Origin: a virus
Direction: 5' to 3' (one strand)
Length of the DNA: 27,009 nucleotides
Virus record (IMG/VR): IMGVR_UViG_3300013104_000069
Coordinates: 1-27,009 of that record
Translations under genes and position numbers: made by a program
In this document: piece by piece, positions 578 to 21,983 of the stretch
Numbering within the stretch: position 1 is the first letter of the stretch
Layout of the letters: each line of letters opens with the position of its first letter
The notes under the pieces: model-generated
Told to the model about the DNA's origin: nothing
The model's database searches: none
Seen by the model: the letters and a program-made list of their open reading frames with translations, nothing else

Positions 578-3352
578 TTACGTGATGCTTCTCTTGAGAG
601 TGGTTACAGAGACCCCTAGTTGTGAGGCGATCTCTGCCTGTGTGTAGCCCTGATCGGCCATGGCCTTGGCACGGTTGGTCTTGGCACTGGTCATCAGAAG
701 GTCCTGTCTTGGCATAGCCAACTGCTTGACAACGTCAAGATCAGCGTTCTCCAAGATGGACTTCAGCTTGCTCGGACTGATGGCGCCTGCCTGGATGGCG
801 GCCCATTCCTGGGGTGTGATCTGGACGGGGGTCTTCTTGGCCCCGGTCCTTACACGAGCCTCGGCTAGTGCCTGCGACTTGATCTTCTTCAGCTCGTCCA
901 CATCCATGTCGGGCTTGTTACGCTTCTTCTCATCGACGATAGCGTTAGCCAGAATCTGGGCGGACCTCTCACGAGGCGAGTTCAGAAGAGCCGTGTTGAG
1001 CTTGCTGTTCAGGGTCGTGACCTCATGGGCATAGGCCTGCTTCGCAGAGGGGCTGTACGGGATGTCCTTGACGGACAGCGTAGCCTTACGTGCGTCGTTT
1101 GCCATAGCCTTAAGACGGTTGGAGTGATCGGCGTAGATCTGCTCCATCTTGGTGTTCTCTTTCGAGACCAAGGTGTGAGCGTTGTCCGTCAGAGCGAGCT
1201 TGTCGATCTGCTCCGTCTTGTATTTGGTCTGACCCTTGGCGTTGATCCAGTGTTCGCCAGTATCGACGAACCTCTTTTGGCCGGTGTTGGGATCGATCGC
1301 GCCGCCCTGCTTGACGGTTGCGAGCTTGCGCTTGTTGATCGTGGCCTGAGAAGTTGCCCTGGAGATGAGCGTTGAAGCTCCGCCCTGAGGGTTCTCCTGA
1401 TATTTCCGACGAAGAGCAGAGATGCCATTCTTCTGCTCGGAGTACTTGTAGTCGAGAACGTGCTTCTCCGCGTCGATGACGACCATGGAGTGCTTGACCG
1501 CTCGAGCAAGCTCGCTGTCGGTGGCACCCTTGATTGTCATATCCGTGATGAGGTTGGAAATCATCCCCATCTCGAAACCGGTTCCGCGCTTCGACTTGCC
1601 CTTTGCAGGGTAGACGACCTTGTTCTCGGCTGCACTCCAGTGCCCACCATCGATCGTGGGCATTCCGTCGTACTTCGGGAAGGCCCTCTTGGAATCGAAT
1701 CCCTTGAGGTCCTCGAGAGCGGGAGAGCTCTTCACCCGGCCATGGTTGTTCGGGATGACCAGAACCGTGTCGCCATCGAAGTCGGCACCCGACAGTCGCT
1801 CAGCGACCTTGTGGTTGATACCGACAGCATCCTTCGCAAGACCCAGAGTCTTCTTGGCCTCGCGCTGGTTGTTGTTGACGACTAGCTCAGGAATCTCGAA
1901 CGTGCCTCCGTGCGGGAAGCGAACCAGCGCGACACGTGTGCCGTTCTCGAAGTTGGGAGCGTAGATCTCCGTAGGCTTCATCGAAGGGATCGGCATCAGC
2001 ACGTGTGTGGACTGACCGGGCATCATGGCTGCCTTGAGATGGACGGACGCGCTGTCCGTTGACTCGGCGAAGGACTTCAGGAGTTCCCGCTTGATGGTCG
2101 GGTTCGTCAGCTTCATGATCTCGTCGAGCTCCGCCTTGCGGTTCGAGTAAGTCATGTCGAGCTGGCTCTTGGCGAGCTGTGCGGACTGCTTGGACAGGAA
2201 CTGAGAAGGCAGGTTTCGAGACCAGGTGTCCCATGAACCTTCCTCACCAGAACCATCCTTGTGGCCCACGATGTTCATCGCCGAGGTAACGCGTTCCTTA
2301 CCCGTGACCGGGTCGCGTTCGACCATCTGCCGGACGGTTGCACCGAACGGGTTGTCCTTGTCATCCTTCTGCGGCTTCATCGCGTCGAGCTTGTTGTCTG
2401 AGCGCGACTTGTTGGTGTGGAACATGATGTCCACGCCGGGAGGCATGTCGTCCTTGTAGACGGCCATTCCCTTGAGGTAGTGCGTGCCATCGACTGAAAC
2501 GCGAACCTGCGCGTAGCGAGCATTGCCGATAGACACGTCCTTGACGCCCGGACGGATATACATCGTTCCGTCGAGCTTGCTTCCGCCATCCTCATCCCAG
2601 ACCACCGCGACACGCTTCGAAGAAATGTCGAGGGGTTCGTGGATTCCGAGATATGAGCGACCGCCGTCCTCAGAGAACTCCTTGATCTGACGGATCTCGT
2701 GGCGCGCTGCTTTGAGATCACGGTACTCGGTACCGGGAGGGCAGAGCACCTTGAGCGTCGTCTTGTTCGAAGTTCCCAGCTGATCCACCTGAACTGAGTG
2801 AACCACGTAGCCCTGCTCCTTGAGGACGGCCACAGCAGTGGCAAGCTTGTCCTTGGAGATGCCGAGCTGTCGTTCCACTCCGGTGCCGACGTCGATGTAC
2901 TTCTTCTCGTCGACCTGCGTCTTGAGCATGGAGGCGGTTGCCTGAAGGACATCCAGCTTGTCCTGGACGCCCGGCTTGAGGTACGAGCGAACCGTGGCCT
3001 CAGGGATGCCCAGCCTGCGCGAGATCGCCATGTTGGAATATCCGGTGTCCCGAAGGGACTGGACCATGTTGATGTCGTGCTGACGCTGAGCGTTCTTGGC
3101 GATCGACCGAGCAGCGCGAAGCTGCGTGGTGTTCATGTCGAAGGCGGTTGCCACCTCGGACTCGGTCATGCCCGACTTCAGGAGCTCGCTGACGTGGTCG
3201 AGGAACTCCTTGTTGCGCTTCCCGCTCGTGTCGTCTCCACCAGAACCCCACGGGTAGCGGCCAGAGTGTCGAGGGGTGCCGTAGTGCTTCAGGCCGTCAT
3301 CGTCGGGGTGGAGTCCGATCGACCTGAGGTATTCCTCGATCCCGATGATCAA
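578..3352 (-). CDS. Single-chain DPBB RNA polymerase-like protein
   Basis: A 924-aa protein. Residues 523-528 read ADFDGD inside LSGADFDGDTVLVIPNN, the metal-binding signature of double-psi-beta-barrel RNA polymerases (bacterial beta-prime NADFDGD; YonO-like phage and QDE-1-type enzymes). Residues 308-316 (DIMFHTNKS) lie where a second barrel with a catalytic lysine would be expected, but that is tentative. Downstream residues 594-650 (MGMISNLITDM, then ELARAVKHSMVVIDAEKH) resemble the conserved region after the catalytic loop of YonO-type proteins as I recall them. The N-terminus (residues 55-125) has two helix-turn-helix-like segments, and the C-terminus (residues 896-922) a third. It starts at TTG, overlapping the TGA of the upstream exonuclease, with GGGAGA in front. 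The likely role is transcription of phage genes by a single subunit. A terminase or structural role is less likely given DFDGD. Confidence 0.82.
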   Translation of the reverse strand: MIIGIEEYLRSIGLHPDDDGLKHYGTPRHSGRYPWGSGGDDTSGKRNKEFLDHVSELLKSGMTESEVATAFDMNTTQLRAARSIAKNAQRQHDINMVQSLRDTGYSNMAISRRLGIPEATVRSYLKPGVQDKLDVLQATASMLKTQVDEKKYIDVGTGVERQLGISKDKLATAVAVLKEQGYVVHSVQVDQLGTSNKTTLKVLCPPGTEYRDLKAARHEIRQIKEFSEDGGRSYLGIHEPLDISSKRVAVVWDEDGGSKLDGTMYIRPGVKDVSIGNARYAQVRVSVDGTHYLKGMAVYKDDMPPGVDIMFHTNKSRSDNKLDAMKPQKDDKDNPFGATVRQMVERDPVTGKERVTSAMNIVGHKDGSGEEGSWDTWSRNLPSQFLSKQSAQLAKSQLDMTYSNRKAELDEIMKLTNPTIKRELLKSFAESTDSASVHLKAAMMPGQSTHVLMPIPSMKPTEIYAPNFENGTRVALVRFPHGGTFEIPELVVNNNQREAKKTLGLAKDAVGINHKVAERLSGADFDGDTVLVIPNNHGRVKSSPALEDLKGFDSKRAFPKYDGMPTIDGGHWSAAENKVVYPAKGKSKRGTGFEMGMISNLITDMTIKGATDSELARAVKHSMVVIDAEKHVLDYKYSEQKNGISALRRKYQENPQGGASTLISRATSQATINKRKLATVKQGGAIDPNTGQKRFVDTGEHWINAKGQTKYKTEQIDKLALTDNAHTLVSKENTKMEQIYADHSNRLKAMANDARKATLSVKDIPYSPSAKQAYAHEVTTLNSKLNTALLNSPRERSAQILANAIVDEKKRNKPDMDVDELKKIKSQALAEARVRTGAKKTPVQITPQEWAAIQAGAISPSKLKSILENADLDVVKQLAMPRQDLLMTSAKTNRAKAMADQGYTQAEIASQLGVSVTTLKRSIT

Positions 3353-4265: not shown

Positions 4266-4766
4266 CTATTCGACGAGGCGGAACTGCTGGTAGGTAGGCC
4301 AGACGAACGTTCGCTTGTGGGCAGCCACCAGAATCTCGCTCAGGACTAGCCCGTGCTTGACTGCTGCCTCTTGGATCGTGTCGTAGATGTCGCCCGTCTT
4401 CATGTCAACGATCTTGGTGTTGCTCTCCTTCCAGATGCGGGACTCGAACTGTAGGTGGTAGCGGATGGCGAAGTAGCGGGGGCGCCACTGAAGGTTGCTC
4501 GCGGCGCAGTTCGTCTTGTCGCCGTCGAGGTGGATGAGGGATATGAAGTCGTCACGGTGTGGCTCGTCGAGGAAGGCCTCGGCCACGATGTGGTTGACCT
4601 GTCTGGTCTTGGTCTTGCCGCCGTCAACGGGGAGGTTGACCTTGAGGTGGCCCTGCTGGTTCTTGCTGGGGGTGAGGGTGCGGTCGTACTTGACGTTGCG
4701 GATCTCTCCGGCGTCGCTGACCTCGTAGTTGGGGGATCGGGCGATCACTCGCCATTCGGCAGTCAT
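4266..4766 (-). CDS. NUMOD4-HNH homing-type endonuclease
   Basis: A 166-aa protein. Residues 4-30 (EWRVIARSPNYEVSDAGEIR) are a NUMOD4 DNA-binding motif. Residues 57-94 carry the HNH core: VNHIVAEAF (H59), LIHLDGDKTN (H79, N86) and SNLQW (N91). Residues 118-150 look like a NUMOD1-type C-terminal helix-turn-helix. Such proteins are free-standing homing endonucleases that cut specific DNA and spread with it. The open frame extends to 4952, but the extra residues translate the A/T-rich control region, so I take the ATG at 4766. Its ribosome site is weak. It sits between the interrupted helicase and the nucleases, which fits a selfish insertion. Confidence 0.85.
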   Translation of the reverse strand: MTAEWRVIARSPNYEVSDAGEIRNVKYDRTLTPSKNQQGHLKVNLPVDGGKTKTRQVNHIVAEAFLDEPHRDDFISLIHLDGDKTNCAASNLQWRPRYFAIRYHLQFESRIWKESNTKIVDMKTGDIYDTIQEAAVKHGLVLSEILVAAHKRTFVWPTYQQFRLVE

Positions 4767-4842
4767 CAGGGAGTCATGGGTCCTTCCGGAGGTCGATCTG
4801 TCAAATGTCAAAAATTTTCGCAACAAACTTTTTTCTTGCTTA

Positions 4843-4852
4843 GGTACTACCC
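4843..4852. promoter_or_regulatory. Palindromic operator-like site 1
   Basis: GGTACTACCC, one base short of the GGGTANTACCC consensus shared with 4940 and 5007. Symmetric, so it probably binds a dimer. A half-site (GGGTATTA) follows 12 bases away at 4865-4872. Confidence 0.55.
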
Positions 4853-4939
4853 TATTATTATTTTGGGTATTAGCGCGAATATATAAAAGAGTTTTACTAG
4901 AGATTTTTGACAAAATGACAGATTTTCGAGGCGAAACGG

Positions 4940-4950
4940 GGGTAATACCC
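4940..4950. promoter_or_regulatory. Palindromic operator-like site 2
   Basis: GGGTAATACCC, a perfect odd-centred palindrome (GGGTA-A-TACCC), the best member of the set. It lies mid-way in the control region. Confidence 0.6.
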
Positions 4951-5006
4951 AAGATTTGGGCCGTTTTTGGGCCTTCAGGACGCCGCCGACCGATGACGGG
5001 CCTGAA

Positions 5007-5107: not shown

Positions 5108-6721
5108 TTAGGCGGCTGTCTCCAGCGCCCGCATGCTGTACCGGTTCTCGTTGAAGTTCTTCTTCTGCCCCAGTGACTTCCGAACTGCCTGATCGATCCA
5201 GGAGTTCGACTGGAGAACGTAGTAGTGAAGCTCGGTGAACGGGGTGTTCAACCGATCGATGCGACCGAATGCCTGGTGCCACGCCTTGTAGGAGTAGGTG
5301 AGGCTCCAGAAGACCATCGCATCTGTGGTGACGCAGTTCCAACCCTCAGACCCAGCGGTGTACTGAACCAGGTAGACCCAGCGGTCAGTCTCCGGAACTT
5401 CCTGGTGCTTGTGCCCGTTCCACTCGGCGAGGGTGAACCGGGTTGTCTCTGGGGCTGGGTCCGACCTGCTCGAGCTGCTGTCCGGAACACACGACCTTCC
5501 AGATTCGTCCATCGAAGAACTTGTCCTCGACGCATGTGCCACAGCTGAGGCAGTTGTACACGATGTAGCCTCCGCTCCCTTCTGCCGGCTCGAGGACCCG
5601 GTGGAGGCAGGTGGCGGGGTTGGCCCCGTCTTCTCGGCTCCAGATGAGCTCGGCCATTCAGTCGTCCTCTCCGTCTCTGATGTGGACTCGTCCGATGCTG
5701 AAGTCGGCTGTGCGCGGTCGAAGCACGCTACCGTCGACGCCTGGGATTCGCTCTCGTAGGAAAGCGACGTGGTTGAAGTCGATCTCGTCCCCGACCTCTT
5801 CTGCGTCAACGATGTCGTCGAACACGTTGTGAGTGATTCGCTGCTTGACAAGCTCGGTGTCGTAGTCGTCGAGGAAGCCAAGGTCCTCAACATCTCCAGC
5901 TCGTAGTCGAAGTTGTAGAACACAATCAGCCGGGGGTGCCTCGTCATGAGCGATCGCACAAACTCCAATCGACTCGGATCCGAGTTCACAACCTTCCGGG
6001 CGACAGTGAACAACTCCGCGATGTCCCTCAGTGGTTTCTCTTCGAATACGTTCCATCGGCCCTTGAAGACCCTTTCTAGCGCTTCTGAGTCATGCTCTAG
6101 GCAGACTTCGCTGACAATTCGTCGGGTATGTCTTTCGTACGGCATTTCGACAAGGAGTTGTTCCTTGTATCGCACCAGCTTGCCTTCTCCCATGAAACGA
6201 TCAACCTTGGGGTACTTGGCGAATCGATTGAAGACTGCATGTTCCCGAAGGAACGCTGTGCGATTCTTGTAGAACCCGTTAGCAACAAATAGAGGGATGT
6301 AGTCAAGCCACCCATCGCCAGGCGTAGCGCTGAGCATGATCCACCGATTGCGCTTTGCGATCTTGATAAGCGCATCAGCCCAGGCCCCAGATCCAACAGC
6401 TCGTTGCTCGTCGAAGATGAAGAAGGCGTCTGTGACATCGGTGTATCTTCCTATGTTGTTCCAGGAGTCGACCGTCAGTACACCTGCGATCGTCGCGTCG
6501 GGGTTCTTACTGATTGCGAAAGCCGCGAATTCTTTCTCCCAGTCGAGAGAATTTCGCTTCTTGGCTGTGGTGATGATGTAGATGTCTTTCGGGGTCTCGT
6601 TCCGCACGTAATATGCGGCTGCCGTGATTGACTTCCCCGTACCTACATCACCCCACAACACTTTCCCGTTACCAAGCTTGGAGACAGCATCCTCTTGGTG
6701 GGGATGGAGGGTTGGACCCAC
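5108..6721 (-). CDS. SNF2-type helicase, interrupted
   Basis: An SF2/SNF2-like DNA-dependent ATPase. The N-terminal half carries Walker A (GDVGTGKS, residues 24-31), FIFDEQ (motif II, residues 102-107), MLSATPG (motif III) and ends near FYNFDYELEMLRTL (residue 281). The C-terminal half resumes at AEWNGHKH (about 5428) with YTAGSEGW (motif V) and QAFGRIDR (motif VI). Between them the frame stays open but reads as a Ser/Thr-rich string of about 150 residues with poor codon bias, while another frame there has good codon bias. The gene therefore looks split by about 430 bp of foreign coding DNA. Start is GTG directly after the upstream TAA. A functional helicase would need removal or bypass of the insert, or tolerance of it. 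Confidence 0.75.
   Translation of the reverse strand: MGPTLHPHQEDAVSKLGNGKVLWGDVGTGKSITAAAYYVRNETPKDIYIITTAKKRNSLDWEKEFAAFAISKNPDATIAGVLTVDSWNNIGRYTDVTDAFFIFDEQRAVGSGAWADALIKIAKRNRWIMLSATPGDGWLDYIPLFVANGFYKNRTAFLREHAVFNRFAKYPKVDRFMGEGKLVRYKEQLLVEMPYERHTRRIVSEVCLEHDSEALERVFKGRWNVFEEKPLRDIAELFTVARKVVNSDPSRLEFVRSLMTRHPRLIVFYNFDYELEMLRTLASSTTTTPSLSSSESLTTCSTTSLTQKRSGTRSTSTTSLSYESESQASTVACFDRAQPTSASDESTSETERTTEWPSSSGAEKTGPTPPPASTGSSSRQKGAEATSCTTASAVAHASRTSSSMDESGRSCVPDSSSSRSDPAPETTRFTLAEWNGHKHQEVPETDRWVYLVQYTAGSEGWNCVTTDAMVFWSLTYSYKAWHQAFGRIDRLNTPFTELHYYVLQSNSWIDQAVRKSLGQKKNFNENRYSMRALETAA
5385..5657 (-). CDS. Small Cys-rich protein inside the helicase gene
   Basis: Up to 90 aa, in a frame offset from the helicase. 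It starts with MAELIWSREDG after a good GGAGAGG site, directly following the TGA of the preceding reading-frame fragment. A Cys/His set (CLHRV, then YNCLSCGTC and VVCSG) resembles a small zinc-binding fold. GC-rich third positions support translation through about residue 70. The last 25 or so residues overlap the resumed helicase frame and look like shadow, so the original C-terminus may have been replaced at the insertion junction. Function unknown; not an obvious HNH or GIY-YIG nuclease. Confidence 0.55.
   Translation of the reverse strand: MAELIWSREDGANPATCLHRVLEPAEGSGGYIVYNCLSCGTCVEDKFFDGRIWKVVCSGQQLEQVGPSPRDNPVHPRRVERAQAPGSSGD
5445..5880 (-). other. Insertion splitting the helicase
   Basis: Approximate limits of the segment where helicase sequence is lost and another frame has the genome's codon bias. 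It carries the 3-prime part of one reading frame (to a TGA at 5658) and the start of a second (5657). No terminal inverted repeats, direct repeats or transposase are visible. It could be a recombinational insertion, a small intron, or a rearranged gene order. Boundaries are estimated from where each helicase half stops looking like its family, so an error of 15-30 bp is likely. Confidence 0.5.
5658..5880 (-). pseudogene. 5-prime-truncated reading frame in the insertion
   Basis: A frame one base back from the helicase encodes about 73 residues with good codon bias, from DLGFLDDYDTELVKQRI to HIRDGEDD and a TGA. It has no suitable start at its 5-prime end: the upstream part of the same frame is only the shadow of the helicase, and the first internal GTG is 20 or so codons in. 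So it looks like the tail of a gene cut by the insertion junction, or a -1 frameshift product of the helicase N-terminal half. No slippery heptamer was seen. Acidic, no recognised family. Confidence 0.45.
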
Positions 6722-7491: not shown

Positions 7492-7779
7492 TTACTTCGC
7501 TGGGGCGATGGTGATGTCGTTGGCGGAGAAATCGAGTTCGACCGTGGTGCCGTCGTAGTCGCAGTTCATAGCGATCCCGCCCGAGCACCAGACACGGGGG
7601 ATATCGATCTGAAGCATGAGCCGGCCTCGGCTGTCCATGATCTCCTGCAACAGCTCCAACGGGAACTTGTTGATGTCGACAGTGATCGAGCCGGTGACGT
7701 AGGGCTTCTCGTAGTTGCGGATGTAGCCCTGTTCGCCCGGGACCCGCATGGGTGGTCGGAAGGTGATCTCGTCACTCAT
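7492..7779 (-). CDS. Hypothetical protein, 95 aa, beta-rich
   Basis: Starts MSDEITFRPPMRVPG, with alternating hydrophobic stretches (GSITVDINKFPLELL, RLMLQIDIPRVW) suggesting a small beta-sheet protein. Its ATG overlaps the TGA of the lipoprotein gene (ATGA), so the two are translationally coupled. The open frame extends far upstream, but that part is lipoprotein shadow. Function unknown. Confidence 0.7.
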   Translation of the reverse strand: MSDEITFRPPMRVPGEQGYIRNYEKPYVTGSITVDINKFPLELLQEIMDSRGRLMLQIDIPRVWCSGGIAMNCDYDGTTVELDFSANDITIAPAK

Positions 7780-8309
7780 CGGCGCGGAGCGGGGGCAGGA
7801 GCGCGGTAGACCGGGGCAGGAGCCTTGTAGGGAGCCGGCTTGTAGTTGTTGACCGCGCCCGGCTTCTGCTGGTACATGGGCTTGGGCGCCTGCTGGATCA
7901 CCTTGGGGGCGGTGATGTTGCTCTTGTCCTTGGGGAGGTAGGACTTCGTCGAGCCGCTCGGCGTCCACCCCGTCTTCGGCACGCCCTTGGCGATCTGAGC
8001 CGTCTGGGGCGCCTTGTAGCCGGCGTACGGGTTCATCTTGGGCGAGGAGTAGTACGTGTTGTGCACGACCTGCATACCCACACGCGGCTGAGCCAGGGTG
8101 GTGGCGATGAAGTACCAGGCGAAGGCATCGCTGGCGCTGTTGTGGTAGTAGTCGTGCCGGCCGCACTGGCTGTCGTCGACGCGCTCGCCCGTGTCCGGGT
8201 TCACGCAGACAGCGACGGACTCCTCCTGGACGTAGGTGCCGCCCTCGTCGCAGGCGGAAATGCTGAATGCTGCTGCAGCGACCATCAGGGCCGCAAGGAA
8301 ACGCTTCAT
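7776..8309 (-). CDS. Secreted lipoprotein, Pro/Ala/Lys-rich
   Basis: A 177-aa protein with a type II signal peptide: MKR, a hydrophobic core (FLAALMVAAAAF) and lipobox ISAC with Cys20. The mature part has two more cysteines (AVCVNPDTG, SQCGRHDYYHN), an aromatic segment, then a tail rich in Pro, Ala, Lys and Gln ending PAPVYRAPAPAPRR, suited to cell-wall or polymer contact. It is probably anchored on the outer face of the host membrane. Phage lipoproteins can block superinfection or DNA entry, as in some streptococcal phages; that role is inference here. The ribosome site is weak (AAAGAGA). Coupled to the next gene by ATGA. Confidence 0.78.
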   Translation of the reverse strand: MKRFLAALMVAAAAFSISACDEGGTYVQEESVAVCVNPDTGERVDDSQCGRHDYYHNSASDAFAWYFIATTLAQPRVGMQVVHNTYYSSPKMNPYAGYKAPQTAQIAKGVPKTGWTPSGSTKSYLPKDKSNITAPKVIQQAPKPMYQQKPGAVNNYKPAPYKAPAPVYRAPAPAPRR

Positions 8310-8506
8310 GGGGTCTCTTTCTTTCTCTTCCGCCAGGCTTCAACCCAGTCGGGGATATGGTCTGGACAATATCGGGTGACATTGTCTCTGCTGAAGTACC
8401 AGCCTTCAGCCTTGATCTGCCCCCACATATGCCCCTTGATCGATCGAGGACACTCTGGTTCGCTGCAGAGCAGGTCGACGGACTGATGGTCGTGGGATCG
8501 GGGCAT
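8306..8506 (-). CDS. Small Trp-rich putative zinc protein
   Basis: A 66-aa protein, MPRSHDHQSVDLLCSEPECP, with C14, C19, C47 and H50 (RYCPDH), four well-placed zinc ligands, several tryptophans and a basic C-terminus (AWRKRKKETP). Possibly a small nucleic-acid-binding or host-interaction protein. Its stop overlaps the lipoprotein ATG. The start is tentative because the ribosome site is weak and the preceding frame overlaps it. Confidence 0.62.
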   Translation of the reverse strand: MPRSHDHQSVDLLCSEPECPRSIKGHMWGQIKAEGWYFSRDNVTRYCPDHIPDWVEAWRKRKKETP

Positions 8507-8615
8507 GGTGGTTACCAGCTTCCTCGTGGTAGATCATGTACTGGTCCAGCTCTTCCATGGTGAGGCCGGTCTCTCGACAGACCTCAGCCATGTTTACTCG
8601 AGTGAGGTACTTCAT
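8406..8615 (-). CDS. Short hypothetical protein, up to 69 aa
   Basis: MKYLTRVNMAEVCRETGLTMEELDQYM is a plausible coding start: ATG overlapping the TGA of the previous gene, and a helix-turn-helix-like helical stretch. After about residue 45 the frame overlaps the next gene by 100 bases and looks like shadow, so the stop used may not reflect a selected C-terminus. Moderate confidence that a short product is made. Confidence 0.5.
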   Translation of the reverse strand: MKYLTRVNMAEVCRETGLTMEELDQYMIYHEEAGNHHAPIPRPSVRRPALQRTRVSSIDQGAYVGADQG

Positions 8616-8743
8616 CGGCCGAAGATTTCCGGGTGGAACATGGCGTCCTTCTTGCAGATCCGACAGCGCATGTGGAAGTAGCGATCCGGCCCCCAGCCCT
8701 GAAGTCGGCCGAGAATCTTCCAGCGGTGCTTGTGCTCGGTCAT
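8612..8743 (-). CDS. 43-aa basic Cys/His protein
   Basis: A very short gene, MTEHKHRWKILGRLQGWGPD followed by HMRCRICKKDAMFHPEIFGR. CRIC and nearby histidines form a possible zinc knuckle. Both ends are tied to neighbours: its ATG overlaps the upstream TGA (ATGA) and its TGA overlaps the downstream ATG. Good codon bias and this tiling make it credible despite its size. Basic and Trp-containing, possibly nucleic-acid-binding. Confidence 0.65.
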   Translation of the reverse strand: MTEHKHRWKILGRLQGWGPDRYFHMRCRICKKDAMFHPEIFGR

Positions 8744-8991
8744 GACGGCCACTCCAGGATCCCGACGCGCTCAGCTCCTCCGACGACCTCTTCCAGCCCG
8801 TCCTCATCGATCCACGTGATGGAACCGGGCTCGGGCGTGCTGTTCTCGATCTTCACGACACGGAACTCCTGCCGACGTCCGTAGATACGAACCAGCGTTC
8901 CTTTCGCCACCGCAGCAGCTGGAAGAACGCTGGTCAGGTCCTCGCCCTCCGTGTGGAGCACGTTGACGTCGAAGTCTTCTGAATCACTCAT
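8740..8991 (-). CDS. Hypothetical acidic protein, 83 aa
   Basis: Starts MSDSEDFDVNVLHTEGEDL, followed by GTLVRIYGRRQEFRVVKI and WIDEDGLEEVVGG. The beta-rich middle recalls small SH3- or KOW-like barrels, but this is only a fold impression. No cysteines or membrane helix. Joined to both neighbours by ATGA overlaps. Confidence 0.68.
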   Translation of the reverse strand: MSDSEDFDVNVLHTEGEDLTSVLPAAAVAKGTLVRIYGRRQEFRVVKIENSTPEPGSITWIDEDGLEEVVGGAERVGILEWPS

Positions 8992-17144: not shown

Positions 17145-17681
17145 TCACTCGTCCCACGGAGCGGGCTCGGCGGCGCCGTCCTCGGCGTTGTGGCCGGCGA
17201 CCGGCACGTCCTGGTACTTCTGCTCGAGGGCGTCGAGCTCCACGACGGCGAACAGCGACTGGACGTAGGCCTTGACGCCGGACCGACCGCTGACGGTGTA
17301 CTCGTAGGGGCGGATGATGATGTCCGCCGACTTGATGTCCGCCCAGTCGAGCATCTCGACCTCCTGCTCACCGAGCGGGGTGCGGTTCATGCCGCGAGCG
17401 GTCTTGGTGATCATGACGACGCGCGGGGGCGTCTTCACCAGCTGGCCGAGCTTGTCGCGGTACTTGACCGAGACGGGGATCCAGTAGTCGCCCTCCCCGC
17501 CGTCGGGGCTGTCCTTGAACTTCTTGACGGGCCATCCGTCCTCGAGCATGGCCTGGGCCAGCTCCACCGGGAGGATGACGCCGGTGTTCCGGTCGCCCTC
17601 GGCGTTGTAGTCGCCGGGCTTGCCCGTGAAGTTGCGCAGGACGAGCTGAGCGTCCTCGATCGTGACGTTGTTGAGTGCCAT
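17145..17681 (-). CDS. ssDNA-binding-like replication protein
   Basis: 178 aa. IEDAQLVLRNFTGKPGDYNA, GVILP, DGWPVKKF, VSVKYRDKLG, PPRVVMIT, then WADIKSADIIIRPYEYTVSG and VKAYVQSLF. I recall this as a phage family often annotated as single-strand DNA-binding and found next to DNA polymerases. The layout (OB-like strands and a DE-rich tail, AEDGAAEPAPWDE) fits an SSB. Directly downstream of a shorter relative and the polymerase. Start follows AAGGAGATTC and the ACATATCC element. Confidence 0.7.
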   Translation of the reverse strand: MALNNVTIEDAQLVLRNFTGKPGDYNAEGDRNTGVILPVELAQAMLEDGWPVKKFKDSPDGGEGDYWIPVSVKYRDKLGQLVKTPPRVVMITKTARGMNRTPLGEQEVEMLDWADIKSADIIIRPYEYTVSGRSGVKAYVQSLFAVVELDALEQKYQDVPVAGHNAEDGAAEPAPWDE

Positions 17682-17697
17682 TCGGGTGAATCTCCTT

Positions 17698-17710
17698 GGA
17701 TATGTGTTGG
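17698..17710 (-). promoter_or_regulatory. CCAACACATATCC element
   Basis: Degenerate but clearly related copy of the recurrent element, abutting AAGGAG of the SSB-like gene at 17681. Confidence 0.5.
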
Positions 17711-18052
17711 TTACAGCTTGGGGGTGATGCTGATGAGGAAGGCAGTCATGCCCTCTCGACCACCGTGAACCCAGTCGCGACCCTCGAGAAACAGCTCCGC
17801 CTTGTTGAAGCCGAGCGAGTCGAGGTGTGACAGATCCACGTCGTACGCAGGGTCGATCTTGACGAGGACCCACCAGGTCTGTGCGGCCTGGTTGTACTTG
17901 ACATTCCAGCCAGCGTCCTTCATGGGCTGGACGTGCTCCGGCGGGATCACGGAAACGAACATGCGCGACCCCGAAGGGAAGTACTGCTGCACGCGGCCCG
18001 TGAAGTTCCGCATGAGGATCAGGGAATCTTCGATGTGGTAAGTGGTGGACAT
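17711..18052 (-). CDS. Short SSB-like paralog
   Basis: 113 aa. HIEDSLILMRNFTGRVQQYF, FVSVIPPEHV, DAGWNVKYN, WWVLVKID, then a divergent end. It keeps the first half of the neighbour at 17145 (IED-x-(L/I)-RNFTG ... V-P ... (D/G)W-VK ... V-VK) but lacks the IIRPYEY block and acidic tail. Perhaps a partner or decoy for the longer protein. Start ATG follows AAGGAAGG and the CATATTTC element. Confidence 0.68.
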   Translation of the reverse strand: MSTTYHIEDSLILMRNFTGRVQQYFPSGSRMFVSVIPPEHVQPMKDAGWNVKYNQAAQTWWVLVKIDPAYDVDLSHLDSLGFNKAELFLEGRDWVHGGREGMTAFLISITPKL

Positions 18053-18082: not shown

Positions 18083-21000
18083 TCAGGCAGCGACGCTGCC
18101 CTCTCCGAGATGCTCGATGAAGTCCTCGAAATTGCCGAACTTCTCGATCGTCTTGATCGCTTCGTACTGCAGGCCCTCGAAGTAGGACATGTCGAGATCG
18201 ACGTCCCTTCCGCGAGCCTTCGCCACGTCCGCCTCGAGCCAGAAGAAGCCCTTGGTGCCCGTGACGGCGTACTTCTTCTCGTCCTTGATCCGGAACAGCA
18301 GACCGCCGCCGGACTCAGGCGTGACGGGAACGAACGTCCCGATCTTGCCGACGAACTGGAGCTTCTTGTCGCCCTCCGACAGGAACATCGGCGTGCTGAC
18401 GGACTCGAAGTCGAGGTACATCGTTCCCTGCTGGACCTGCTTCGGCTCGACGTAGTCGTTCCAGTCCAGCTTCTCCTGAGAGAACAGGGTCTTGAAGACG
18501 TACGGGTGCTGGAACTGTGCGCCCGTTGCCGTCCACTTGCCGATGAGCTCCTCGTCCTCAGCCCACCCGTACTTCGCGATATACACCGCGTCGTTGACCA
18601 GAGCCATCCGGTCGTAGGTGGCCTCGTGCTCGAACGTGTAGCCGTACTTGGCTCCGAAGTCCATGACCTCCTGGATGATCTCCGGCGTGGCGTCCGGGAT
18701 CTTGATGGAGTCCGTCTTGATGTGCGCAGCGATGAAGCCACGGCTCTCGACGAAGTCCCTCAGGTCCAGCATGAACAGCGCTCCCCGCTTGGCGACGATG
18801 TTGTCGACGTTGCGCGGGTCCCGGAAGGGGTTGTCGAACTTCGCCGACGTGAGACCGTAGACGATGTTGATCACGATCTTCAGGGCGTACGAGAGCCTCT
18901 TGGCGTCACCCGGGTCTCCGAGATATGGCTCGAGCTTCCCGTCCAGCATCTGCTTGGCCTCGTCGTACTTCTTGTGCTTGATCAGCAGACGAGCGTCCAA
19001 CAGGTCCTTGAACTTCGGGGTGAAGATATCCCCGAACGCGTTCAGCTCGATCAGGGACGTCGGGTGCATGGACGCCACGTCGAGCAGCGCCACGTTCCGG
19101 TAGATGCCGGGCTTGGCACGTACCAGACCACCCTCGCCGACGAACTCGCCCTTGTACGTGCTCTTCTCGCCCACCTTGGCGTAGGTGTCGAACTTGTAGC
19201 CCGGGAAGTCCCGGCTCAGGTCCGTGTAGACGAACTTGGACTGCGGGTTCTTGTCGTTCCCGAAAATGATCCGGGCGGTGTGCTTCTGCGTCGTGTCGTT
19301 GACCGACAGTCCACTCAGCTCCGCGAGGATCTGACGAGCCACGAGGTCCGCCTTCCGGTCCTGCAGCGTGGCGTCGGTTCCCTCGACGTCGTTGCAGCAG
19401 TAGTCGACGACCGTGTCCACGAGCTCCGCCGGCACCGGCTGGTCCCATGGGATCTCCATCTCGACCTTGTGGATGCCGAGATCGATCATGAACTTCTTCA
19501 GGCCCTGCTTCACCGAGCTGAAGTCGTAGATATCGGCGTACGAGAGGTTGTAGGCCTCCGGGAAGAACGCGCCGACACTGCCGTTGATGATCGCCTGCGA
19601 ACGCTTGTACAGGGCCATGTTGTCGTAGCCGAGGAAGCGTGCGTAGATGATGTGGTTGTCGTACTTGCGGTTGTTGAACCCCACGAGCTTCATCTTCATG
19701 AGCTCTTCGACCTGCTGCGGGGTCGGGTTGATCATCCGGACGATGGTTTCCTTGGGCGCACCCTCGTACTTCCAGCAGATGACGAAGAGGTTCGGGTAAA
19801 CCTCGACGTCGAAGACGACCAGACGGTCATCCTTCGGCTTGACCAGAGGGCTCTCCCGCTCCTGCAGGTCCTCGATCGTCTCCGAGCCCGTCCATCGCAT
19901 CGACTGCACGATCTTCAGGGCCTGAAGCGGCTGGTTGCTCGACGAGTTGGCGAACGCGAGAACCCTGGGCCTCATGTCCGTCACGTCGAACGCCATCCCG
20001 GACTCGTATGCCTCGTCGAGGATGTGCTTGATGAAGTCGATCGAGGGCTTGGTGCCTGCGTGGAACTCCTTGTTCAAGTTCCGTTGGATCAGGTCACGCA
20101 GCCCTTTCTCGCTCTTCAGGATGTTGTCGGAAAGCACTTTCTTCTCCTTAACGGGCAACTGCCCTGGATTTAGTGTCGCGACCTCGAGATTGTTGCACTT
20201 CGAGAGTCGTCGGCGGAGCGATGCGTCACCGAGAAGGGTCTTGACTTCCACGCCATCGGAATATACCGAGGCGAGTTCGGTGACGTCACCCGTGTAGTTG
20301 TAGTGCAGGTGGATGCCGTTCCCACCCTGACTCAATTCCGCGTAGGTCTTGGGCCAAGAACTGGCGGCTTCCATGTTGAGCAGGAGCGACTTCTCGCCCG
20401 ACTCGTCCTTGAGGTCGAAGTCGATGATGACGTGCTCGTCCGGGATCTTCACGTAATGGAGTTCACGTGTGTCGATCTCCGAGAGCGTGGTCTTGACCTC
20501 TGCCCACCGCTTGGACGGGATGACGTTGCCGGTCTCCTCGACGACTCGTCCATACTGAGCTGGCTGCTCGGCATAAATAAGATCGAACGAAGAGACCTCC
20601 TCGTCCAGACTCAACCCGAAGACGGGCTCCTTGTCGGGCTCCTGCTTGAGGACGACCTTGAACTTGTCGGCGTTGAAGCCCTTGAAGAAGCTCCGCACGG
20701 GGTCTCCGTCCACGGTCGTCCGATCTAGGAACTCGTCGAAGTAGTTCTTGAACTCTTCGCGGAACTTGTACGCCGGCATCACTCGGTCGATGCTTGATTC
20801 CGAGCAGTACTCCTTGTAAAGGGAATATCCCTGCTTCAGGGAAGCGCCATCCTGACTCTTGAAGATGTCGAAGTGCGCCTCGATGAAGTTGAAGAAGATG
20901 TCCGTCTGGAACATCATCTCCAAGGGCTTGTAGCCGTTGTACGCGTTCTTCCCACCCATGTTGCGATATACCTGCAGGCAGTGGTGAGCGATGGCACCCA

Positions 21001-21967
21001 GTTCGAACTGGACCTTCGCGAGAAGAGCGTGGTAGTGGTTCGGCGGGATGGTCGCGCCCGTGGGGTGGACGTCGATTACTCGCCTGATCATTCCGGACTT
21101 GGAGTCCGAGATCTTCACTGGGAGGTTCGTCCCCATGAACAGGAAGGCATTCACCCGAGCCGTGTAGCTGGGCTTGTACTTCTCGTTCATCGTCATGTCC
21201 TCGTGGGAAATGATCGAGTTGAACTTGGAGTTGTCCTCCATCTTGGACAGGTCGCCGTCCTGCTGGATAGCGACCAACGGGTTATCCTTGAAAACCTCGG
21301 TGGCGAACGCAGCGCTGGTGGACGTCAGCGCCTTTGCCTCGAACGTCGTGGTGTAGCCGACGAACAGGTCATTGATGATGTTCATGATGGTGGACTTGCC
21401 CGTACCCGCCGCACCGTAGAACACCATGAACTTCTGGATCTTCTTCGCTTCGCCTGCGACCACCGCTCCAATGGCCCACTCGATCTTCGCCTTCTCCTCG
21501 GGGGAGTACAGCACGTCGGTGAGCTCGTCCCAAGCGCTGTGATCGCCCGGTTCGAGAGAATATGGCAGCCGTCGGCTAACGTAGTCCGACTTCTTTACCT
21601 CTGTGTTGGCGAAGGTGAGGTTCTCATCCAACGGGTGGCTGTTGTCGCTGATGTTGTTCAGGAACTTGCGGAACTGACTCCAGCCATTGCTTCCGAAGGA
21701 ACGGAGCGTCTTGACCTTGTACTCGATCCCGTCCTTCTCGCTGCGCATCTTCGCGAAGTCGTAGAGCTCTTCGTCGACCAGCCGTTGGACGTCGTACTCG
21801 TCCGTGGACCACAGACCTACCGCCTCGTCCCAGATCGCATAGAACGCGCGTCCGCGAACCATGAGATCCTTCGACCTCCCGACCGTGAAGTCAGGAAATA
21901 TCTCCGGCGGTTCAGCGCCCTTCTTCGTCTCCTTGCCTTCGCGAATCCCGATTGTGAAGAAATCCAT
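18083..21967 (-). CDS. SF3 helicase-AEP primase-family B polymerase fusion
   Basis: 1294 aa with three activities in one chain (numbers include the alternative TTG one codon upstream). Residues 150-310, SF3/D5-like helicase: Walker A GAAGTGKST (186-194), acidic IQQDGD (235-240), GTNLP sensor (280-285) and arginines 296-297. Residues 480-605, archaeo-eukaryotic primase: IIDFDL (D517, D519), GGNGIHLHY (H554/H556), DGVEVK (572-576). Residues 715-1290, family B polymerase with proofreading: ExoI VFDVEVY (D721, E723), ExoII FNNRKYD, ExoIII YCCND (Y857, D861), motif A DVASMHP (D964), motif B KIVINIVYG (K1031, Y1038), motif C IKTDS (D1087). Motif C has Lys where the first Asp of DTDS is usual; the catalytic second Asp remains. 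Start ATG has AGGAGG. The replisome is probably organised around this protein. Confidence 0.85.
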   Translation of the reverse strand: MDFFTIGIREGKETKKGAEPPEIFPDFTVGRSKDLMVRGRAFYAIWDEAVGLWSTDEYDVQRLVDEELYDFAKMRSEKDGIEYKVKTLRSFGSNGWSQFRKFLNNISDNSHPLDENLTFANTEVKKSDYVSRRLPYSLEPGDHSAWDELTDVLYSPEEKAKIEWAIGAVVAGEAKKIQKFMVFYGAAGTGKSTIMNIINDLFVGYTTTFEAKALTSTSAAFATEVFKDNPLVAIQQDGDLSKMEDNSKFNSIISHEDMTMNEKYKPSYTARVNAFLFMGTNLPVKISDSKSGMIRRVIDVHPTGATIPPNHYHALLAKVQFELGAIAHHCLQVYRNMGGKNAYNGYKPLEMMFQTDIFFNFIEAHFDIFKSQDGASLKQGYSLYKEYCSESSIDRVMPAYKFREEFKNYFDEFLDRTTVDGDPVRSFFKGFNADKFKVVLKQEPDKEPVFGLSLDEEVSSFDLIYAEQPAQYGRVVEETGNVIPSKRWAEVKTTLSEIDTRELHYVKIPDEHVIIDFDLKDESGEKSLLLNMEAASSWPKTYAELSQGGNGIHLHYNYTGDVTELASVYSDGVEVKTLLGDASLRRRLSKCNNLEVATLNPGQLPVKEKKVLSDNILKSEKGLRDLIQRNLNKEFHAGTKPSIDFIKHILDEAYESGMAFDVTDMRPRVLAFANSSSNQPLQALKIVQSMRWTGSETIEDLQERESPLVKPKDDRLVVFDVEVYPNLFVICWKYEGAPKETIVRMINPTPQQVEELMKMKLVGFNNRKYDNHIIYARFLGYDNMALYKRSQAIINGSVGAFFPEAYNLSYADIYDFSSVKQGLKKFMIDLGIHKVEMEIPWDQPVPAELVDTVVDYCCNDVEGTDATLQDRKADLVARQILAELSGLSVNDTTQKHTARIIFGNDKNPQSKFVYTDLSRDFPGYKFDTYAKVGEKSTYKGEFVGEGGLVRAKPGIYRNVALLDVASMHPTSLIELNAFGDIFTPKFKDLLDARLLIKHKKYDEAKQMLDGKLEPYLGDPGDAKRLSYALKIVINIVYGLTSAKFDNPFRDPRNVDNIVAKRGALFMLDLRDFVESRGFIAAHIKTDSIKIPDATPEIIQEVMDFGAKYGYTFEHEATYDRMALVNDAVYIAKYGWAEDEELIGKWTATGAQFQHPYVFKTLFSQEKLDWNDYVEPKQVQQGTMYLDFESVSTPMFLSEGDKKLQFVGKIGTFVPVTPESGGGLLFRIKDEKKYAVTGTKGFFWLEADVAKARGRDVDLDMSYFEGLQYEAIKTIEKFGNFEDFIEHLGEGSVAA

Positions 21968-21983
21968 CAACCCTCCTTTCCTA

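Follow-up and report, generated by a model that had tools for sequence, protein, structure and literature searches.

A fused helicase-primase-polymerase gene of phages with a conserved internal start probably encodes a second, shorter polymerase

How four activities fit into a single chain has been asked by the authors who characterised GP55 of Lactococcus phage 1706, in which helicase (UTP/dTTP-dependent), RNA primase, polymerase, and 3′-5′ exonuclease activities were shown, and who suggest a division of labour within a dimer, with priming by one subunit and extension by another (NAR 2025, PMC12205980). The question returns with a gene on the minus strand (18083–21967) of the window analysed here, a virus record of 27,009 bases, which the original prediction described as one fused protein. 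This gene is a GP55-type HelPrimPolB replicase, and its architecture is already known. Codon conservation indicates, however, that this protein probably makes up only half of what the gene produces, as a conserved internal start would yield a 684-residue aHD-polymerase in addition to the 1294-residue replicase.

The frame begins at an ATG at 21967 and ends with the stop codon at 18083, comprising 1294 codons plus stop without an internal stop, and the plus strand across 18083–21967 is interrupted by stops. A Shine-Dalgarno-like AAGGAGG lies just 5′ of the main ATG (within 21968–21980, minus strand) and contains the sole AGGAGG found 5′ of any start-like codon in this frame; a TTG at 21970 is an alternative start codon. 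The protein matches PHROG 4210, labelled DNA polymerase, along residues 1–1286 (1953 bits). A chance open frame is excluded by this match and by those in public phage records, which number 277, with 252 of them over at least 80% of the length, usually annotated "DNA primase/polymerase" in phages of Gordonia, Arthrobacter, Streptomyces, Rhodococcus, and Curtobacterium. A scan of IMG/VR returned at least 599 matching stretches, at least 566 of which are relatives, and 136 stretches encoding relatives came from GTDB genomes. The frame is single and uninterrupted in 198 of the 201 loci fetched from IMG/VR and GTDB, on which ground a frameshift or split gene is rejected; as in the original prediction, no frame change was detected. 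The three exceptions carry an insertion (L206), one frame change (L208), and many frame changes that likely reflect assembly (L052). In L206, which derives from a Clostridia genome, about 1.2 kb (7694–8890) splits the replicase copy between residues 918 and 921 and contains an HNH-like open reading frame and a phage antirepressor-like one; this may be an intron or a homing insertion within the part that encodes the polymerase domain. Between the window and a 92%-identical contig (L012), dN/dS is 0.09–0.19 in every domain.

Along the chain, an SF3/D5-type helicase is followed by an archaeo-eukaryotic primase (AEP), an alpha-helical domain (aHD), and a proofreading family-B polymerase (PolB) with its exonuclease, confirming the three domains originally predicted, helicase, AEP, and PolB, and their order in one 1294-codon frame. 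Two AlphaFold models were built from 78-row alignments, covering residues 1–700 (mean pLDDT 90.9) and 430–1287 (mean pLDDT 89.8); among the fold matches listed, the first model is matched in its helicase part and the second in its PolB part. Residues 1–440 (20648–21967, minus strand) comprise a D5_N-like region, the SF3/D5 helicase, and a C-terminal region, as indicated by DUF5906, by TIGR01613 (below its cut-off), by fold match, and by residues conserved across 174 homologues. All four SF3 helicase features are present at the N-terminus, namely Walker A (K191), Walker B (region D237/D239), sensor 1 (N281), and the Arg finger (R295/R296). Model residues 7–424 match the SaPI5 primase-helicase with a Z score of 22.1 (374 residues, rmsd 4.5), followed by pox D5/E5 (Z about 19) and the helicase parts of ASFV PrimPol and NrS-1.

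The AEP (residues 458–612; 20132–20596, minus strand) is PriS-like, and its identity is supported by sequence profiles and invariant motifs. Following the motif definitions hhhDhD, sxH, and hD/E (PMC5862659), motif I is D516-x-D518, motif II is G-I-H553, and motif III is E574, with D516, D518, H553, and E574 invariant in 174 full-length homologues. The window protein alone gave no significant AEP match against Pfam, and an AEP profile gave nothing significant against PDB sequences. Across the family, PF09250 Prim-Pol matches 30 of 41 members (best 7.4e-4) and the primase profile phrog_3022 matches 40 of 41 (best 9e-8). The aHD (residues 613–700; 19868–20131, minus strand) is defined by the alignment and by four model helices (620–631, 639–655, 663–674, and 680–688). 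The 3′-5′ exonuclease (residues 712–905; 19253–19834, minus strand) carries D720, E722, D770, Y856, and D860, and is identified by invariance in the 174 sequences, by alignment of GP55 D712/E714, and by the PolB fold match. The PolB polymerase (residues 930–1294; 18086–19180, minus strand), assigned from invariant or nearly invariant residues, alignment of GP55 D949, and fold, contains motif A (D963xxS966), motif B (K1030/N1034/Y1037/G1038), and motif C (K1084-T-D1086). Model residues 698–1281 match the family-B polymerases KOD (Z 17.0), Pol alpha (16.9), and E. coli Pol II (15.5). Throughout the 174 homologues, no variation is seen at K191, D516, D518, H553, E574, D720, E722, D770, D860, D963, K1084, or D1086.

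The original prediction had left undecided whether this order was already described. It was, in both PMC7544198 and PMC12205980, and the fusion itself is not new since GP55 has been characterised and the HelPrimPolB group named. GP55 and the window protein share the order helicase, PriS-like AEP, aHD, and PolB, full-length homology (38% identity over 99% of the length and 40% over aligned columns), and catalytic residues. All of the following residues mutated in GP55 are kept in the window protein: K189 (K191), D509 (D518), D712 (D720), E714 (E722), D949 (D963), and F667 (F672). GP55 primes RNA synthesis at CCAAC-like sites, loses priming in the D509A mutant, and needs the aHD residues Y655 and F667 for priming (PMC12205980). 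Where GP55 has Y655, the window protein has F660, a conservative change in a column with Y in 164 and F in 10 of 174 homologues. In a 2020 study, the HelPrimPolB group is named for an SF3 helicase, PrimPol, and PolB order identical to that of the window protein, its members are treated as single multidomain enzymes, and the architecture is credited to a 2016 paper, NAR gkw322 (NAR 2020, PMC7544198). The phage proteins of PHROG 4210 form a full-length family in whose annotations the helicase is mostly unnamed. The two-part make-up is already recorded for ReqiPoco6, with COG3378 at the N-terminus and PolB at the C-terminus. The SaPI5 primase-helicase, pox D5/E5, ASFV PrimPol, and NrS-1 PrimPol likewise combine an SF3/D5 helicase fold with an AEP in one chain. 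However, in these proteins the AEP precedes the helicase and PolB is absent, and the window protein, with its order of helicase, AEP, and PolB, falls outside the NrS-1/D5-type PrimPol-helicase class.

When the replicase gene was scanned for start codons that lie in frame behind an SD-like sequence, a GTG at codon 611 (20135–20137, minus strand) behind AAGGAG was found besides the main ATG. This codon lies at the AEP/aHD boundary, after the final strand of the AEP and before helix 1 of the aHD, in the linker modelled with the lowest confidence in this region (residues 611–620, mean pLDDT 65). Translation from it would produce a predicted protein of 684 residues (611–1294; 18083–20137, minus strand) comprising the aHD, the 3′-5′ exonuclease, and PolB. 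The aligned site, nine codons before the conserved Glu620, carries a start codon in 170 of 174 full-length homologues (ATG 96, GTG 70, and TTG 4, with GTT 2, ACG 1, and ATT 1 in the others), and the flanking codons follow no such pattern. The same scan yielded an ATG at residue 1102 behind an SD-like CAGGAG, which was rejected as an internal start because no more than 47% of clusters have a start codon in that column.

The choice among synonymous codons at the site bears on a single fused protein as the only product, the view of the original prediction and of the published account of GP55, in which Met or Val at 611 would be a hydrophobic linker residue and its codon meaningless. Such a reading agrees with the study of GP55 as one chain and with the chemical similarity of Met, Val, and Leu. 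Yet across 118 clusters at 80% identity, Val at 611 is encoded by GTG in 49 of 50 cases (98%) against 22% for Val gene-wide, a preference that an amino-acid constraint cannot yield. Among 116 Val-rich columns, codon 611 is the sole internal one that is nearly always GTG, followed by the gene's own start at 93% and then by a column at 44%. Leu at the site is encoded by TTG, and the neighbouring codon lacks any bias toward start codons. Codon 611 shows 0.04 of the synonymous diversity expected, compared with a gene mean of 0.97 and 0.54 at the next lowest codon. When 1265 five-codon windows are ranked, the bottom five each overlap codons 607–615. By parsimony on a 118-sequence tree, the type of start codon at 611 changed 28–29 times, and the pattern holds separately in viral contigs and in GTDB genomes.

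The observation was repeated out of sample, with the site fixed beforehand, in 74 new clusters less than 80% identical to the first set. There, 70 of 74 clusters carry a start codon (ATG 45, GTG 23, and TTG 2, with ACG 3 and ATA 1 in the others), and Val is encoded by GTG in 23 of 23 cases against 21% in those genes. Binomial P values (1e-31 and 3e-16) ignore the relatedness of the sequences, which makes them overstate the evidence, and should be read as indications only. In total, 7 of 192 clusters (3/118 and 4/74) lack a start codon at the site, having GTT, ACG, ATT, or ATA instead. In phages 1706 and P118, a candidate start lies two codons earlier, as TTG behind AAGGAGG in 1706, near the internal-start place of the GP55 gene, and as ATG behind AAGGAGGAG in P118. 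Given that the same preference recurs in genes whose Val codons are otherwise 21–22% GTG, we consider it unlikely that the fused protein is the only product.

The SD-like AAGGAG lies 6 nt before the internal GTG (20144–20149, minus strand). The median anti-SD energy upstream of 611 is -9.0, whereas synonymous shuffles reach -6.9 and the remaining start-like codons in frame have -2.1, and the local RNA structure at the internal start is weaker (-3.3 versus -6.3 kcal/mol), values to be read with the composition of the linker in mind, as its richness in Lys and Glu accounts for much of the SD and part of the low structure, and purine-rich stretches are weakly structured in any case. In 109 of 118 clusters, the SD at 611 is stronger than in synonymous shuffles of the same gene, and Gly in this stretch is encoded by GGA in 42 of 47 cases versus 31% gene-wide. 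The choice of Val and Leu codons at 611 is left unexplained by the amino-acid content of the linker. The codon that follows is GTA in 38 of 50 Val cases, and the one after that is often AAT, which resembles the A/T-rich bias that typically follows start codons.

Constraint on the nucleotides of codons 605–615 could also stem from another element, such as a DNA site bound by a protein, an RNA with a regulatory role, or the remnant of an ancient gene fusion. The synonymous constraint around codons 607–615 speaks for such an element, and a fusion relic would sit exactly between domains, as this site does. However, almost only the three start codons interchange there, through 28–29 changes and together with an SD and low structure; no Rfam match was found in the window; and a fusion relic would have decayed, given that synonymous sites elsewhere are near saturation. 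An element of this kind is very improbable. That one domain has degenerated, or that sequencing or assembly errors created the frame, is practically untenable, since the missing AEP matches of the window protein alone in Pfam and of the profile among PDB sequences are outweighed by catalytic residues that vary little or not at all among 174 homologues, by purifying selection on every domain, by AEP profile matches in most relatives, and by the loss of priming in GP55 D509A (PMC12205980).

The best explanation, to which we assign a probability of about 0.84, is a HelPrimPolB replicase made together with a predicted short product from codon 611, the two forming mixed replisomes. The earlier description as one fused protein holds insofar as the fused enzyme is encoded; the conserved internal start suggests that a separate polymerase product is made as well. 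T7 gene 4 gives rise to a long and a short product, gp4A and gp4B, a primase-helicase and a helicase, through an internal in-frame start, and the feature of this gene type, a conserved internal start codon with an SD at a domain boundary, is found here. Similarly, plasmid pIGRK produces a long Rep and a truncated Rep, RepR and RepR′, from an internal in-frame start (PMC6854812). These two, likewise replication genes, are the nearest analogues of the gene organisation, and differ in that the short product predicted here is a polymerase, whereas that of T7 is a helicase and that of pIGRK a truncated Rep. No plasmid match for the aHD-PolB part was found. The internal start in HelPrimPolB genes appears new: PMC12205980 describes no internal start or second product of GP55, the PHROG 4210-type phage records examined list no second product, and no report of an internal start in fused replicase genes was found in a literature search that covered few subscription journals.

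In the proposed mechanism, the N-terminal D5/SF3 helicase would unwind DNA, the AEP together with the aHD would make RNA primers, which the PolB at the C-terminus, aided by its exonuclease, would extend with proofreading. Ribosomes would also initiate at codon 611, in the flexible AEP-aHD linker, to produce the 684-residue protein, which would retain the proofreading polymerase and the aHD needed by GP55 for priming. GP55 is mainly a dimer, with the helicase domain as its point of contact, and has a primase and a polymerase that are able to work in trans (PMC12205980); extra polymerase chains could therefore extend the primers of a full-length chain. In such mixed replisomes, full-length chains would unwind and prime while short chains supply polymerase in trans, and the number of polymerases would be uncoupled from that of helicases and set by internal initiation.

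Directly downstream of the replicase, two tandem genes with a Phage_ssDNA_bind domain (17145–18052, minus strand) match PF24083 partially at 18052–17711 (about 50 residues, 4e-14) and almost fully at 17681–17145 (4e-52). By domain match, the pair is a putative duplicated and diverged ssDNA-binding protein, whose products may be partners at the replicase's fork. Elsewhere on the minus strand of the window, a 924-residue protein (578–3352) containing ADFDGDTVL matches PHROG 4291, "RNA-dependent RNA polymerase", with 1286 bits, and may represent a YonO/QDE-1-like RNA polymerase that consists of a single chain and carries HTH domains at its two termini. A NUMOD4/HNH homing-type endonuclease gene (4266–4952, minus strand) is followed in coordinate order by a helicase gene (5108–6721, minus strand) 62–65% identical to the helicase of Streptomyces phage RosaAsantewaa. 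The latter bears an in-frame insertion of about 450 bases (about 5432–5884) that is absent from the relatives seen and contains, in another frame, a Cys-rich open reading frame (YNCLSCGTC).

It is likely that the HelPrimPolB genes of this large family, whose phages infect actinobacteria and gut Firmicutes, each encode two nested proteins, the replicase with four activities and an aHD-polymerase, the dose of polymerase being set by internal translation. If so, the "self-contained" replisome would be a mixed assembly, the reconstitution of fused replicases should change, and many annotated phage genomes would be missing a replication protein. By supplying polymerase chains that lack helicase and primase, a conserved internal start would provide the dimer model of GP55 with a genetic basis and a simple test.
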